Positions 36,567 to 40,340 of a stretch of DNA of 64,000 bases are shown here, one piece after another. This DNA is from Marinomonas vulgaris (GTDB lineage Bacteria; Pseudomonadota; Gammaproteobacteria; Pseudomonadales; Marinomonadaceae), in assembly GCF_018145875.1 (NCBI RefSeq), contig NZ_JAGSSV010000001.1, forward strand, positions 310,001-374,000, read 5' to 3'. Position 1 is the stretch's first letter, and every line of letters starts with the position of its first letter. The notes below the pieces were generated by a model that was not told the origin of the DNA, did not search any database, and saw only the letters and a list, made by a program, of their open reading frames with translations. The position numbers were made by a program, and so were the translations under genes.

Positions 36567-37337
36567 ATGGATTTGGTCTTTTTCGATATCTCGCTTTGGG
36601 TTTTCCTCATGTTATTTGCGGCGGCGTTTCTGGCGGGGGTGATTGACGCCATTGCGGGCGGCGGTGGCTTAATCACGGTGCCGGTACTGCTGGCAGCGGG
36701 GTTGTCTCCCGCCGAGGCACTCGCCACCAACAAACTTCAAGGCTGTGCTGGCACCTTGTCGGCTTCCTATCACTTTGTGAGGAAGGGCCAGGTCGATTTG
36801 GCAAGCATGTGGTTTCCTATTGTGATGACGGCTATGGGCGCCATGTTCGGCACTTTTTTAGTGTCTTATTTAGACAGCAGCCTCTTGCTTAAAGCTGTGC
36901 CTATTATCTTAATCGCGGTGGCAATTTTCTTTTTCTTTCTACCCAAAGTGCAACCCTATATTGCTCGGCGAGTGTCACTTACCCATGGGCAATTTGCCGT
37001 GATCATCGGCACCTCGATTGGCTTTTACGATGGTTTAATTGGCCCAGGCACAGGGGCGTTCTTTTCTACCGCGTATTTGTGTTTTATGGGCTTAACCGTG
37101 GTCTCTGCGACGGCGCACACCAAGGTGCTCAACGCCACCAGCAATGTGGCCTCTTTGGCGGTGTTTCTCTTTAGCGGGCATATTATCTGGGCGTTAGGCA
37201 TTGCCATGGGCATCGGTCAGTGGGCTGGCGCGCAAATTGGCTCGCGTTTAGTCATCACTAAAGGTGCAGCACTAATTCGACCTATGGTGATTGTGATGTG
37301 CTTGGCCATTTCAGTGAAACTGCTGTTGGACAACTAG
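36567..37337 (+). CDS. TSUP-family (TauE/SafE) membrane permease
   Basis: 256 residues with about eight transmembrane segments. The family repeat is visible as AFLAGVIDAIAGGGGLITVPVL near the N-terminus (read with its glycine run) and GFYDGLIGPGTGAFFSTAY in the second half. The position-specific ALATNKLQG and HTKVLNATSN pair is typical of the YfcA subgroup. Members export or import sulfonates, sulfite or other small anions. No sulfonate enzymes are nearby, so the substrate is unknown. It overlaps the convergent LysR gene by 4 bp. Confidence 0.9.
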   Translation: MDLVFFDISLWVFLMLFAAAFLAGVIDAIAGGGGLITVPVLLAAGLSPAEALATNKLQGCAGTLSASYHFVRKGQVDLASMWFPIVMTAMGAMFGTFLVSYLDSSLLLKAVPIILIAVAIFFFFLPKVQPYIARRVSLTHGQFAVIIGTSIGFYDGLIGPGTGAFFSTAYLCFMGLTVVSATAHTKVLNATSNVASLAVFLFSGHIIWALGIAMGIGQWAGAQIGSRLVITKGAALIRPMVIVMCLAISVKLLLDN

Positions 37338-38275
37338 GACATCAGTTGCTCGGGAGTCGTCAGCGCGTCTTCGGCGGAAAATTGATAACATTCTGATACC
37401 AGCCAGCGCAGCAACTGTTGCACAGACTCTCGCTGTCGTTGCATTTCAGGGCACACAAACAGATATACATGGCCTTCATCGAGGGTTTCTTCAAAAGGTC
37501 GCATGAGTCGCCCTTGCTGAATATCGTCCATCACCAAAGGCGTTCGACCGAGCGCCACGCCCTGACCCGCTACCGCCGCCTGCACCGCCAAATCACCTCG
37601 ATTAAAACTGATACCACGGGATAGCTTGACGCCTTTGGCGTTGGCCAGCAATAGCCATTTTTCCCATTCCGCATAGGGGCTGGAAAAGCGCCATTCAGAA
37701 TCGTCGTTTAATAGTGGCACCTGCGCCAATTGACTCGCTTCCTGCAAAGCACGCGATTCTGCGAATGCAGGACTGCACACAGGAAACACCTTGTCTTTCA
37801 TTAAGGGCACCACGTAGCCTTTTGAGCTATGAACATGGCTATGTACAATAGCCACATCAATCCTATCTCGCTGAAAGTTCACCTCTCGATCATTGGCTTG
37901 AATACGCAATTGCAAATCAGGATACGCTTCTTGCAAGCTACCAAGGCGAGGAATTAGCCACTTAGTCGCAAACGATGGCATGACAGACACAGTAAGAATA
38001 TTTGAGGTCTCTTCTTCTTGCAGCTCCAATATAAGATCACTGATTTCGGTAAAACTGTGATTAAGCTGCACCGCCAAACGTGCGCCAGCTACCGTTAGCT
38101 CTAGGCGTCGGTGGTAACGAACAAATAAGGTTAACCCTAAACGCTCTTCAAGCTGCCGAATTTGTTGGCTGATCGCCCCTTGGGTTAAATGCATTTCTTG
38201 CGCCGCCTTGGTAAAGCTTAAGTGCCGTGCGGCAATCGCGAAAGTATTTAATCCTGCTAGTGGAATAGACTTCAT
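37334..38275 (-). CDS. LysR-family regulator, GcvA-like
   Basis: 313-residue LysR protein of the GcvA subgroup, recognised by LNTFAIAARHLSFTKAAQEMH and LTQGAISQQIRQLEERLG in the DNA-binding domain. The effector domain follows. GcvA itself controls glycine cleavage, but many relatives regulate other neighbours. Here it converges with the TSUP permease gene and shares no promoter with it. The target is not evident. Upstream lies the candidate small RNA region. Confidence 0.87.
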   Translation of the reverse strand: MKSIPLAGLNTFAIAARHLSFTKAAQEMHLTQGAISQQIRQLEERLGLTLFVRYHRRLELTVAGARLAVQLNHSFTEISDLILELQEEETSNILTVSVMPSFATKWLIPRLGSLQEAYPDLQLRIQANDREVNFQRDRIDVAIVHSHVHSSKGYVVPLMKDKVFPVCSPAFAESRALQEASQLAQVPLLNDDSEWRFSSPYAEWEKWLLLANAKGVKLSRGISFNRGDLAVQAAVAGQGVALGRTPLVMDDIQQGRLMRPFEETLDEGHVYLFVCPEMQRQRESVQQLLRWLVSECYQFSAEDALTTPEQLMS

Positions 38276-38371
38276 ATCCCTTTTACCTTACCCCGGTGTA
38301 ATCATTCGATAGTCTGTAAAAAACCGTATTTTGCATTAGTTAGGCTAATTCAACAAATCAATTTAAATCGT

Positions 38372-38399
38372 TTGTCTGTCTTGGTTAAAAAGCTAGAAT
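38372..38399 (+). promoter_or_regulatory. Putative promoter of the 38.4-kb small RNA
   Basis: TTGTCT (38372-38377) and TAGAAT (38394-38399) are separated by 16 bp, matching sigma-70 hexamers at four and five of six positions. It would start transcription close to 38406. Confidence 0.5.
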
Positions 38400-38405
38400 A
38401 TGGCC

Positions 38406-38580
38406 ATCTCTTAGGTTCAACAGCGACCTAGTTTTTATTGATACAGCCCTAACTGTATTGCTTCTAAAATATGCCCCCACAGTCATATTTTAGATGAGTC
38501 ACAACATCCCCCACAGGTTATTGTGACTCGCAACTGCTAGTTACTTTTGTTTAAGCCGGACCTTTGTCCGGCTTTTTTTT
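38406..38580 (+). ncRNA. Candidate structured small RNA with twin C-rich loops
   Basis: No gene reads rightward here, yet a promoter-like sequence, four hairpins and a strong terminator follow one another. Hairpins: TAGGT/ACCTA (38412-38430), ATACAG/CTGTAT (38441-38458), CTAAAATATG/CATATTTTAG (38464-38493, 10 perfect pairs), and GAGTCACAA/TTGTGACTC (38496-38529, 9 perfect pairs). The third and fourth both expose CCCCCACAG in their loops. The terminator AGCCGGAC/GTCCGGCT ends in eight T (38554-38580). Length would be about 175 nt. C-rich loops of bacterial small RNAs often pair with G-rich ribosome sites. I do not recognise a known family. The neighbouring genes on both sides read leftward. 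Confidence 0.65.
38554..38580 (+). terminator. Orphan strong terminator (3' end of candidate small RNA)
   Basis: AGCCGGAC-cttt-GTCCGGCT followed by an eight-T run. It has the rightward polarity, although no protein gene lies upstream on that strand. Confidence 0.9.
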
Positions 38581-38636: not shown

Positions 38637-38664
38637 AAAAAAAACGGCGACCCAAAGGCCGCCG
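38637..38664 (-). terminator. Terminator of the gap gene
   Basis: On the reverse strand ACGGCGGCC pairs with GGTCGCCGT across a short loop and is followed by a T-run, 40 bp after the stop codon. Confidence 0.85.
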
Positions 38665-38704
38665 TAAAGTAACACACGTAAAATGTGTCCGGTCATTCCA
38701 TCAC

Positions 38705-40078
38705 TTAAGCGGCTGCAGATTCCAGCAACTCAGCGTTAACTAACTTTGCTTGAGCAAGTTTTTCCATTAAGCGAACAACCTGACAGCTGTAACCGTATTC
38801 GTTGTCGTACCAAACGTACAAGATAGCCTGATTACCGCGTACTTTAGTGGACAAGGAATCAACAATACCGGCTTGTGAAGAGCCGATAAAATCAGAGCTC
38901 ACTGCGTCAGCACCATCACTGTAACCAATTTGCCCCGTCAATTCAGCGCTGTCAGAAGCGGCTTTTAATAATGCGTTGATATCATCAACAGACGTGGCTG
39001 ATTTCAGGTTTAAGCTCAATACAGCAATGGACACGTTGATCACTGGCACTCGAATCGCACTGCCACTTAGCTTACCTTCCAAAGAAGGAATGGCTTTTGA
39101 TACGGCTTTCGCAGCGCCTGTTTCTGTCATTACCATGTTCATGCCAGCGGCACGACCACGACGATCACCTTTGTGGATGTTATCAATTAGGTTCTGGTCG
39201 TTAGTGTAAGCGTGAACCGTTTCAACGTGGCCCGACTCAATGCCGTATTTTTCTTCAAGTACAGATAAAATCGGTGTAATAGCATTAGTAGTACAAGACG
39301 CTGCAGAAACAATTTTGTCTTCGTTAGTGATATCGCCGTCGTTCACACCAAAAACCACGTTTTTCATTTCTTTGCCTGGTGCTGTAAGCACAACACGTTC
39401 GATGCCTGGACGATTCAAATGTACGCTCAAGCCATCGTGATCACGCCAGCGGCCGGTGTTGTCTACCAACAAGGCGTTGTTAATACCATGCGCTTGGTAA
39501 TCTACTTCCGCAGGGTCGGATGCGTAAATCACCTTTACCGGTGAGCCGTTAATGATCAAGGCTTGGTTCTCTTCGTCGACTTTTACTAAGCCGTCGTAAG
39601 CACCATGAACAGAATCGTATTTGAGCAAACTAGCACGTTTTGTTAAATCATTATCGCAGGCTTTACGCACCACAATGGCTGCTAATTTCATACCAGGAGT
39701 TGTGTGACCTAACATGCACATGCGACGAGCCAATAAACGACCGATACGACCAAAACCGTACAATACGACAGGCGTTTCTGAACCGTCAGTTGTTTGCGCA
39801 GCCAACACAGAATCCATGTCGGCTTCAGCAATAAGAGATTCAAGTTCCACGGCTGTGTGCGACACATCACCTGCTAGAAGTTGTTCTAACAGTTGATAAA
39901 CTTGAACGAGGTCTAATTCAGGGTGTTTATCGAATGCAGCCATCAAACCTGTGACAGAGTCTGCCATCAAGGTGTTGCCCGCTAATTCAACTTTAATGGC
40001 TTTTTCACGGCCCAATTTACCTAAAAGAGGAATCATGGATTCTGCTTGTGAAAGTGCTTGTAACCAAGTGCTTGTCAT
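38705..40078 (-). CDS. Glyceraldehyde-3-phosphate dehydrogenase, long form
   Basis: 457 residues, about 120 longer than standard GapA. The first 100 residues are a helical extension (WLQALSQAESMIPLLGKLG...) without the nucleotide fold. The Rossmann motif then begins at VVLYGFGRIGRLL (G108-G113). The catalytic Cys262 lies in SAASCTTNA, and the substrate-binding TETGAAKAV and YDNEYGYSCQVV blocks are intact. It oxidises glyceraldehyde 3-phosphate with NAD(P). Similar extended enzymes occur in Vibrio and Pseudomonas, where they are often gluconeogenic or of unclear direction. It is monocistronic. Confidence 0.9.
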   Translation of the reverse strand: MTSTWLQALSQAESMIPLLGKLGREKAIKVELAGNTLMADSVTGLMAAFDKHPELDLVQVYQLLEQLLAGDVSHTAVELESLIAEADMDSVLAAQTTDGSETPVVLYGFGRIGRLLARRMCMLGHTTPGMKLAAIVVRKACDNDLTKRASLLKYDSVHGAYDGLVKVDEENQALIINGSPVKVIYASDPAEVDYQAHGINNALLVDNTGRWRDHDGLSVHLNRPGIERVVLTAPGKEMKNVVFGVNDGDITNEDKIVSAASCTTNAITPILSVLEEKYGIESGHVETVHAYTNDQNLIDNIHKGDRRGRAAGMNMVMTETGAAKAVSKAIPSLEGKLSGSAIRVPVINVSIAVLSLNLKSATSVDDINALLKAASDSAELTGQIGYSDGADAVSSDFIGSSQAGIVDSLSTKVRGNQAILYVWYDNEYGYSCQVVRLMEKLAQAKLVNAELLESAAA

Positions 40079-40340
40079 TTTCTGCCCCCGAAAAAAGACT
40101 TTGTTGTATCAATGTGGGCTCAGTTTATCGACACAAAGGAACAAAAACAAATTGTAAGAAGACTACGAAAAACCTTTAAAAACGGGTGTTTAGCGTATTT
40201 TTTTATAGAAATAACGAGATAAACAAGAGAGGTTAGAAACTTTACTACATAAGTTGGCGATTATGACGCAAAGAATGAATTTTCGTGCCATTATGTTGTA
40301 ATTTGCCAACAAGAAGTGGCAATAACTTTCATAAATTATT

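Follow-up and report, generated by a model that had tools for sequence, protein, structure and literature searches.

The window analyzed here, a stretch of 64,000 nucleotides from Marinomonas vulgaris, contains a rightward unit that sits between two leftward genes, one encoding a LysR-type regulator and the other designated gap (Table 1). As noted in the initial annotation, both flanking genes read leftward, and the promoter-like start, the four hairpins and the strong rightward terminator that were described between them are all present. We conclude that this unit is a free-standing small-RNA gene, the transcription of which is predicted from the sequence to start at about position 38406-38407. 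The promoter-like and terminator-like elements would on their own say little, as a scan gave two promoter-like sites where 1.0 was expected, which is near the chance level, and two terminator-like sites where 0.5 was expected, which is little above it. The -10 element is kept as TANAAT, however, in 39 of the 40 loci at which the RNA was found in the genus (see below), and the T-run is conserved in 39 of them as well. The plus strand folds at -58.9 kcal/mol (z = -5.14), and none of 200 shuffled sequences folds as well. The reverse strand also has a good fold (z = -5.70), so that the strand is not set by folding alone and is assigned by the promoter together with the T-run that follows the terminator stem. 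No open reading frame of at least 20 amino acids lies wholly within the RNA on the plus strand, and the longest one on this strand across 40 relatives ranges from 4 to 40 amino acids, hence the RNA is unlikely to code for a protein. Among the open-access papers listed (titles and abstract openings) we found no account of this RNA or of small RNAs in Marinomonas, and nothing that joins GcvB with Marinomonas, or GcvB with Oceanospirillales and small RNAs.

Table 1. Genes, control elements and RNA features at the small-RNA locus, in window coordinates.
Feature	Position	Strand	Remarks
GcvA-type LysR regulator gene, divergent from the RNA; predicted controller	37334..38275	-	NCBIfam PRK11139
GcvA-type operator ATTAGTTAGGCTAAT, predicted	38335..38349	.	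centre 57.5 nt upstream of the -10 end, about -64.5 from the predicted start
Promoter: -35 TTGTCT (38372-38377), spacer 16, -10 TAGAAT (38394-38399)	38372..38399	+	9 of 12 consensus positions
Small-RNA gene, ~173 nt	38407..38579	+	model R1 match of 193 bits in own genome
Hairpin 1 (UAGGU/ACCUA)	38411..38431	+	missing from the RNAalifold consensus
Hairpin 2 (AUACAG/CUGUAU, loop CCCUAA)	38441..38458	+	double changes at 6 of 8 pairs, 14 sequences
Hairpin 3, 11-bp stem, CCCCCACAG at 38474-38482, predicted seed 1	38463..38494	+	covariation
Hairpin 4, 9-bp stem, CCCCCACAG at 38508-38516, predicted seed 2	38496..38529	+	second loop motif
Conserved single-stranded tail GCUAGUUACUU, predicted seed 3	38536..38546	+	C[UA]AGUU[AG] in 39 of 40 loci
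Intrinsic terminator, stem 38553-38574, then T-run	38553..38580	+	9 pairs, with 100% of the cells pairing across the 14-sequence alignment
Leftward terminator of gap	38644..38665	-	
gap	38705..40078	-	

The folded structure is supported by comparison of relatives. In an alignment of 14 sequences, double-sided changes occur at 26 of 39 pairs and 93.9% of the cells pair, values that none of 500 shuffles reaches. Hairpin 1 is the weaker element, as it is missing from the RNAalifold consensus. A pseudoknot between the loop of hairpin 2 and the tail was considered and dropped by eye; several species alter the loop and not the tail. The stems of hairpins 3 and 4 look unrelated in sequence, and of the lengths first given for them, 10 and 9 bp, the second is correct while the stem of hairpin 3 has 11 bp. 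The loop sequence that they were said to share, CCCCCACAG, is found exactly at both loops, but what the genus as a whole conserves is a core of CCCACAG preceded by a pyrimidine, not CCCCCACAG itself. Compensatory stem changes with conserved loops had been named as the pattern that would support a functional RNA, and this pattern is seen at hairpin 3. When 43 bases around the first CCCACA were taken from each of the 40 loci and aligned by sequence only (39 distinct rows), double changes were present at 10 of 10 pairs tested and 84.6% of 390 cells paired, with CCCACAG following a pyrimidine in all 40 loci. Covariation was 0.519, compared to 0.227 for shuffled alignments (0 of 500 reach the observed value) and at most 0.167 when the pairing was slid, while by the weaker measure 31 of 500 shuffles also give 10 pairs with double changes.

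The second copy of the loop motif is less constant than the first. It is CCCACAG exactly in 28 of the 40 loci, CCCACA in 32, and is absent from eight (L016, L087 and L115-L120), where the place of hairpin 4 folds with a different loop. The two-loop pattern in the initial annotation is thus universal for the first loop and not for the second. The two motifs are spaced by 34 nt in 19 of the 32 loci having both. In single-sequence folds of a short segment containing hairpin 3, CCCAC is unpaired in 29 of 40, and part of the motif is paired in the other 11. The 9-mer CCCCCACAG is hardly enriched in the own genome (10 sites versus 6 for the reversed word), and the case for the loop consequently rests on the comparison of relatives. 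The loops had been proposed to be the functional part of the RNA, which agrees with their conservation, but this overlooked the single-stranded tail, an element that occurs in more loci than the second loop does, as CUAGUUAC in 34 of the 40 and as the full GCUAGUUACUU in 28.

In a first DNA search the own genome and 13 of 24 relatives of the same genus were matched strongly (E ≤ 1.1e-7), with no such match among 13 genomes of other families. A covariance model, R1, built from 14 sequences, recovers the RNA in 40 of the 48 Marinomonas genomes searched (E ≤ 1.3e-7). The remaining eight genomes of the genus comprise three that have weak matches only (E 0.006 to 0.017) and five that have none. The same model was used to search 194 genomes of the order, in which strong matches occur in seven members of the genus, while 16 further genomes (one in the genus) gave 17 weak matches of at most 34.7 bits. 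These 17 loci were rejected as homologues, as CCCACAG is absent in the stretch read and they appear by eye to be terminators after unrelated genes. In its modelled form the RNA is thus restricted to Marinomonas at the sensitivity of these searches, those covering more than 40 genomes having been run with stricter filters.

The regulator encoded next to the RNA is of the GcvA type, and the LysR protein passes the NCBIfam model PRK11139, 'transcriptional regulator GcvA', with 298.1 bits (cut-off 288). A protein search with GcvA returned 25 loci, 19 of which are at 81-92% identity and all in Marinomonas, the other six having at most 32% identity. At all 40 strong loci of the RNA a gcvA relative (65-100% identity over the part present) lies divergent from it and upstream, while gap was matched downstream in 36 of them and is about 2 kb away in the records taken as the remaining four (L046, L079, L080, L081). 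The RNA is therefore not the orphan that it was initially called. None of the eight genomes of the genus without a strong RNA match has a GcvA match at 1e-60, and G171, the genus genome without the RNA in the order sample, has none at 1e-55. As a positive control, all seven RNA-bearing genus genomes of the order sample match GcvA at 1e-168 or better; these are near relatives (80-100% identity), and we infer that an orthologue at 65% identity would also pass 1e-60. The GcvA-type regulator and the RNA thus appear to travel together.

Upstream of the RNA, the sequence ATTAR-n5-YTAAT (ATTA-N7-TAAT) is present in 39 of the 40 loci, in 16 of them in the strict form ATTAG-n5-CTAAT, and the distance from the centre of this box to the end of the -10 element is 57.5 nt in all 38 loci in which both elements were found. 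The strict word is not enriched in the own genome (6 sites versus 5 for a control word), so that its position and spacing carry the case for an operator. In Escherichia coli, gcvB is divergent from its activator gene gcvA (excerpt of PMC1557403), and the GcvA repeats between them have the sequence ATTAG-n5-CTAAT, the centre of IR1 being located at -65 relative to the start of gcvB (excerpt of PMC5002191). The comparison made here is with IR1; the other operator of gcvB, IR2, is at -43. The Marinomonas control region has the gcvB layout, therefore, both in the consensus of the box and in its location at about -65, a position that assumes a start about 7 nt past the -10. Between the predicted GcvA box and the -10 element, the sequence ATCGTTTG (window 38360-38374) is invariant in 15 aligned sequences; it overlaps the likely -35, and the leftward gcvA promoter may also use it.

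GcvB is the model case of a single small RNA that rules nutrient uptake. It represses genes for the import of amino acids and peptides in an Hfq-dependent manner, and the counterpart of this that is seen here is complementarity to TRAP genes. The Marinomonas RNA is like GcvB (RF00022; enterics, Vibrio and Pasteurellaceae) in that its gene is divergent from gcvA, in the ATTAG-n5-CTAAT-type operator at about -65 (excerpt of PMC5002191; here relative to a predicted start), in having several hairpins and an intrinsic terminator, and in the repression of uptake genes at their ribosome-binding sites, which here is predicted. It differs in having no covariance-model match to RF00022, in its C-rich loops as compared to the G/U-rich main seed R1 of GcvB (excerpt of PMC9409037), its conserved elements being CCCACAG and the tail, and in its predicted targets, which are TRAP transporters rather than the ABC transporters regulated by GcvB. 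None of the 194 genomes of the order has a match to RF00022 over the cut-off, with the E. coli control positive, and sub-threshold matches (at most 27.8 bits) occur in three of them, none in the genus. Likewise, a search of 20 relatives at E ≤ 1 did not bring up GcvB, which is also absent from the weak Rfam matches (E ≤ 10) of the window region. The remark in the initial annotation that no known small RNA family was recognized is in accord with Rfam 15, which has no match in the window at the gathering score. Among the 19 matches listed for the loci of the 20 relatives none reaches its gathering score, and most of the weak relaxed-score matches of the region include one of the two terminators.

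Two other groups of small RNAs are similar in design. The alpha-r14/NfeR1 or 'cuckoo' RNAs of Alphaproteobacteria carry the anti-Shine-Dalgarno loop word CCUCCUCCC on three hairpins, and they share with the Marinomonas RNA an identical C-rich loop motif on hairpins with differing stems and candidate targets that are mostly transporter mRNAs (excerpt of PMC10746234). They belong to a different bacterial class, however, and to an NtrBC circuit according to the title of the same paper, and where they have CCUCCUCCC the Marinomonas RNA has CCCACA(G), carried by one hairpin or by two, together with a predicted seed in the tail. LhrC of Listeria monocytogenes, which we liken to the Marinomonas RNA by its description and not by sequence, targets Shine-Dalgarno regions with alternative seeds, which are either CU-rich loops or a single-stranded stretch (excerpt of PMC5880928), but has a Gram-positive host, is controlled by LisR and is multicopy. 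The design of the Marinomonas RNA would thus resemble that of alpha-r14 and LhrC and the layout of its regulation that of GcvB, and we file it as none of these.

Ranking of the fetched stretches for complementarity to the loop brought out dctQ, a small TRAP-transporter permease gene (Pfam DctQ and DctM) that is located some 10-18 kb from the gene for the TRAP binding protein. In all six orthologues found (G009, G119, G011, G018, G013 and the own genome), the ribosome-binding site of dctQ reads A-CUGUGGG-UAYUUUMAUG, in which CUGUGGG is the complement of the CCCACAG loops, and three of them (G009, G013 and G018) have another CUGUGGG 35-40 nt upstream. In the 60 nt before 535 gene starts, which comprise those of the window and of the stretches of seven genomes, CUGUGGG occurs nine times, all at dctQ, while the counts at these starts for seven control 7-mers, of which five are made of the same letters and two are reverse complements, range from 0 to 4. 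The duplexes predicted between the loop and dctQ have energies of -13.3 to -15.4 kcal/mol. These sites would fit the earlier suggestion that the loops pair with G-rich mRNA, and where two of them exist the twin loops, with a spacing of about 34 nt in the majority of species, might hold on to both simultaneously. On the other hand, CUGUGGG may be kept at dctQ simply as a ribosome-binding site, and the 6/6 at dctQ, like the 5/5 at dctP described below, do not represent independent events, as the species are few and the sites are inherited.

A candidate target of the tail is the TRAP binding-protein gene (dctP). A CTGTGGGG site 80 nt upstream of this gene in the own genome (L147) led to its leader, and although that site is private to the own genome when compared to relatives, the same leader contains, just before the Shine-Dalgarno sequence, AAGUAACUGGC, which has 11 nt of complementarity to the RNA tail (one G.U). 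The tail site thus came to light in a gene that had been chosen out of 39 loop-complement sites, and the starting point was a selected one. The corresponding regions of relatives were fetched by synteny and the binding-protein copy was recognized by its N-terminus. AAGUAACUGGC is present in all five genomes that have this copy (own, G011, G009, G018 and G013), the leaders otherwise differing, and is absent from eight paralogue starts examined. One of these eight is in G119, a genome that carries the RNA; it stands beside the same neighbour but is of the paralogue type and has no site, so that by position alone the count is 5/6. In G007, which also has the RNA, the neighbour is present and neither target was found in the 80 kb examined. 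The five tail sites are five of the six best among 446 gene starts, and a score of 10.25 is reached by shuffled tails in 127 of 26,760 tests of genes and, for the leader of the own genome, in 13 of 2,000. The own tail is predicted to pair with all five dctP leaders at -15.3 to -17.7 kcal/mol.

The interval between dctQ and the binding-protein gene contains, in the own genome, putA and a gene of the AraC type. The binding protein itself passes the NCBIfam model TRAP_S1 (81.6 bits, cut-off 50) and not TIGR00787 dctP, and its best solved relatives include one named a ketoacid-binding protein together with 2hzk, which we take to be TakP although its record reads SmoM. The TRAP binding-protein gene is present in two to four tandem copies in L222, L224, L233 and L242, with the tail complement on one copy only.

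Searches of the own genome for other targets gave none. Sites for CTGTGGGG are not enriched (39 versus 41 for the reversed word), and the 30 of these 39 that were read yielded no target apart from the TRAP lead. Near-complements of the tail are rarer than those of the control (18 versus 60) and likewise revealed no target. None was seen among nine SBP_bac_3 genes or among SBP_bac_5 genes (20 matches, 19 read), which are the classes closest to the known targets of GcvB. Ranking of the window genes was also without success, and gap was kept as a weak rival. The Shine-Dalgarno region of gap, GGGGGCA, is unusual, and in some species it matches hairpin 3 at UGCCCCC.

The RNA is, in our view, probably a GcvA-controlled regulator of uptake that acts in trans by base pairing in the manner of GcvB without being recognizably related to it. 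In the mechanism that we propose, the GcvA-type regulator would bind the ATTAR-n5-YTAAT box at about -65 and switch the RNA on, probably in response to an amino-acid cue. The RNA would then present one or two identical CCCACAG loops and the single-stranded tail GCUAGUUACUU, with a loop pairing to CUGUGGG at the ribosome-binding site of the TRAP dctQ mRNA and the tail pairing to AAGUAACUGGC, which immediately precedes the Shine-Dalgarno sequence in the mRNA for the TRAP binding protein (TakP-like, of the alpha-keto-acid type). Both pairings would block translation, and a single import cluster, which also holds putA, would thereby be turned down. This scheme is built on observations of the RNA gene, of its structure and conservation, of its link to the regulator, which is seen in position, in spacing and in co-occurrence, and of the complementarity that is conserved at the two mRNAs; GcvA binding and activation, production of the RNA, pairing and repression would connect them.

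Several other explanations of the locus were considered. It is hardly credible that there is no separate transcript, the region being the untranslated or terminator region of a neighbour or a set of chance hairpins. The RNA gene is predicted from the sequence, its reverse strand folds well and promoter-like sites are near the chance level, but both neighbours are on the opposite strand, gap has a leftward terminator of its own, and chance hairpins or a neighbour's end would not account for the conserved -10 and T-run (each in 39 of 40 loci) or for conservation in 40 of 48 genomes combined with the covariation of hairpin 3. The twin loops might instead bind an RNA-binding protein, the RNA acting as a titrating sponge. 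Repeated identical hairpin loops with GGA are the anatomy by which CsrB, RsmY and RsmZ titrate CsrA, and two identical loops on unrelated stems recall it. We regard this as unlikely, since the loop motif has no GGA, its copy number is one or two (one only in 8 of 40 genomes), and a sponge would leave unexplained both the conserved tail and the exact complement of the loop at an mRNA, that of dctQ, in six of six orthologues found. The C-rich loops might also act mainly on the mRNA of gap, the GGGGGCA Shine-Dalgarno sequence of which (window 40083-40089, minus strand) in the own genome pairs over 7 nt with hairpin 3, at UGCCCCC, and is found in 15 of 16 other loci in which the gap start is covered. 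This pairing uses the variable flank of the loop, which is often UGU or ACU, and not the invariant CACAG, however, L105 has GGGAGCA, and gap ranks second and not first among the window genes for this loop, all of which make such a role very unlikely.

The origin of the RNA can be read in two ways. One reading is that the GcvA switch and its operator were kept while the RNA was exchanged for an unrelated one of opposite chemistry, with TRAP instead of ABC transporters as targets, C-rich loops masking G-rich ribosome-binding sites where GcvB directs a G/U-rich strand against C/A-rich ones. We put this forward tentatively, as quite possible but short of probable. The RNA may otherwise have descended from gcvB itself and drifted past recognition, in which case the locus was never taken over by an unrelated RNA, and the neighbour, the orientation, the operator consensus and the operator distance are all as at gcvB. 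Such descent is conceivable but on the whole doubtful, given that RF00022 finds nothing over its cut-off in the order while detecting the E. coli control, that GcvB is matched neither in the 20 relatives nor in the window region even at the relaxed thresholds, and that the seed chemistry differs, with C-rich loops here and a G/U-rich R1 in GcvB (excerpt of PMC9409037).

If exchange of the RNA proves to be true, then regulator, operator and locus have been kept with an RNA that looks unrelated, and what evolution holds is the circuit and not the RNA. This would provide a rule for finding such RNAs, which is to search for the box of the regulator at a fixed distance rather than for the RNA sequence. 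The conserved complements at dctQ and at the TRAP binding-protein gene make the idea directly testable.

Outside the genus, seven genomes have GcvA-like regulators at 35-42% identity. In five of the seven (L215-L219, 39-42% identity) the gene is divergent from an apparent L-serine dehydratase gene, and in the other two the divergent partner is an apparent methyltransferase gene in one case and a deaminase-like gene in the other, these partner names being presumed by us from the translated starts. No small RNA was seen beside these seven genes in a reading by eye. In L220, where the partner is a trimethylamine-type methyltransferase-like gene, a ATTAGTTATTCTAAT box is present just upstream of the GcvA-like gene, and this looks like the same operator word with a protein-coding partner instead of an RNA.
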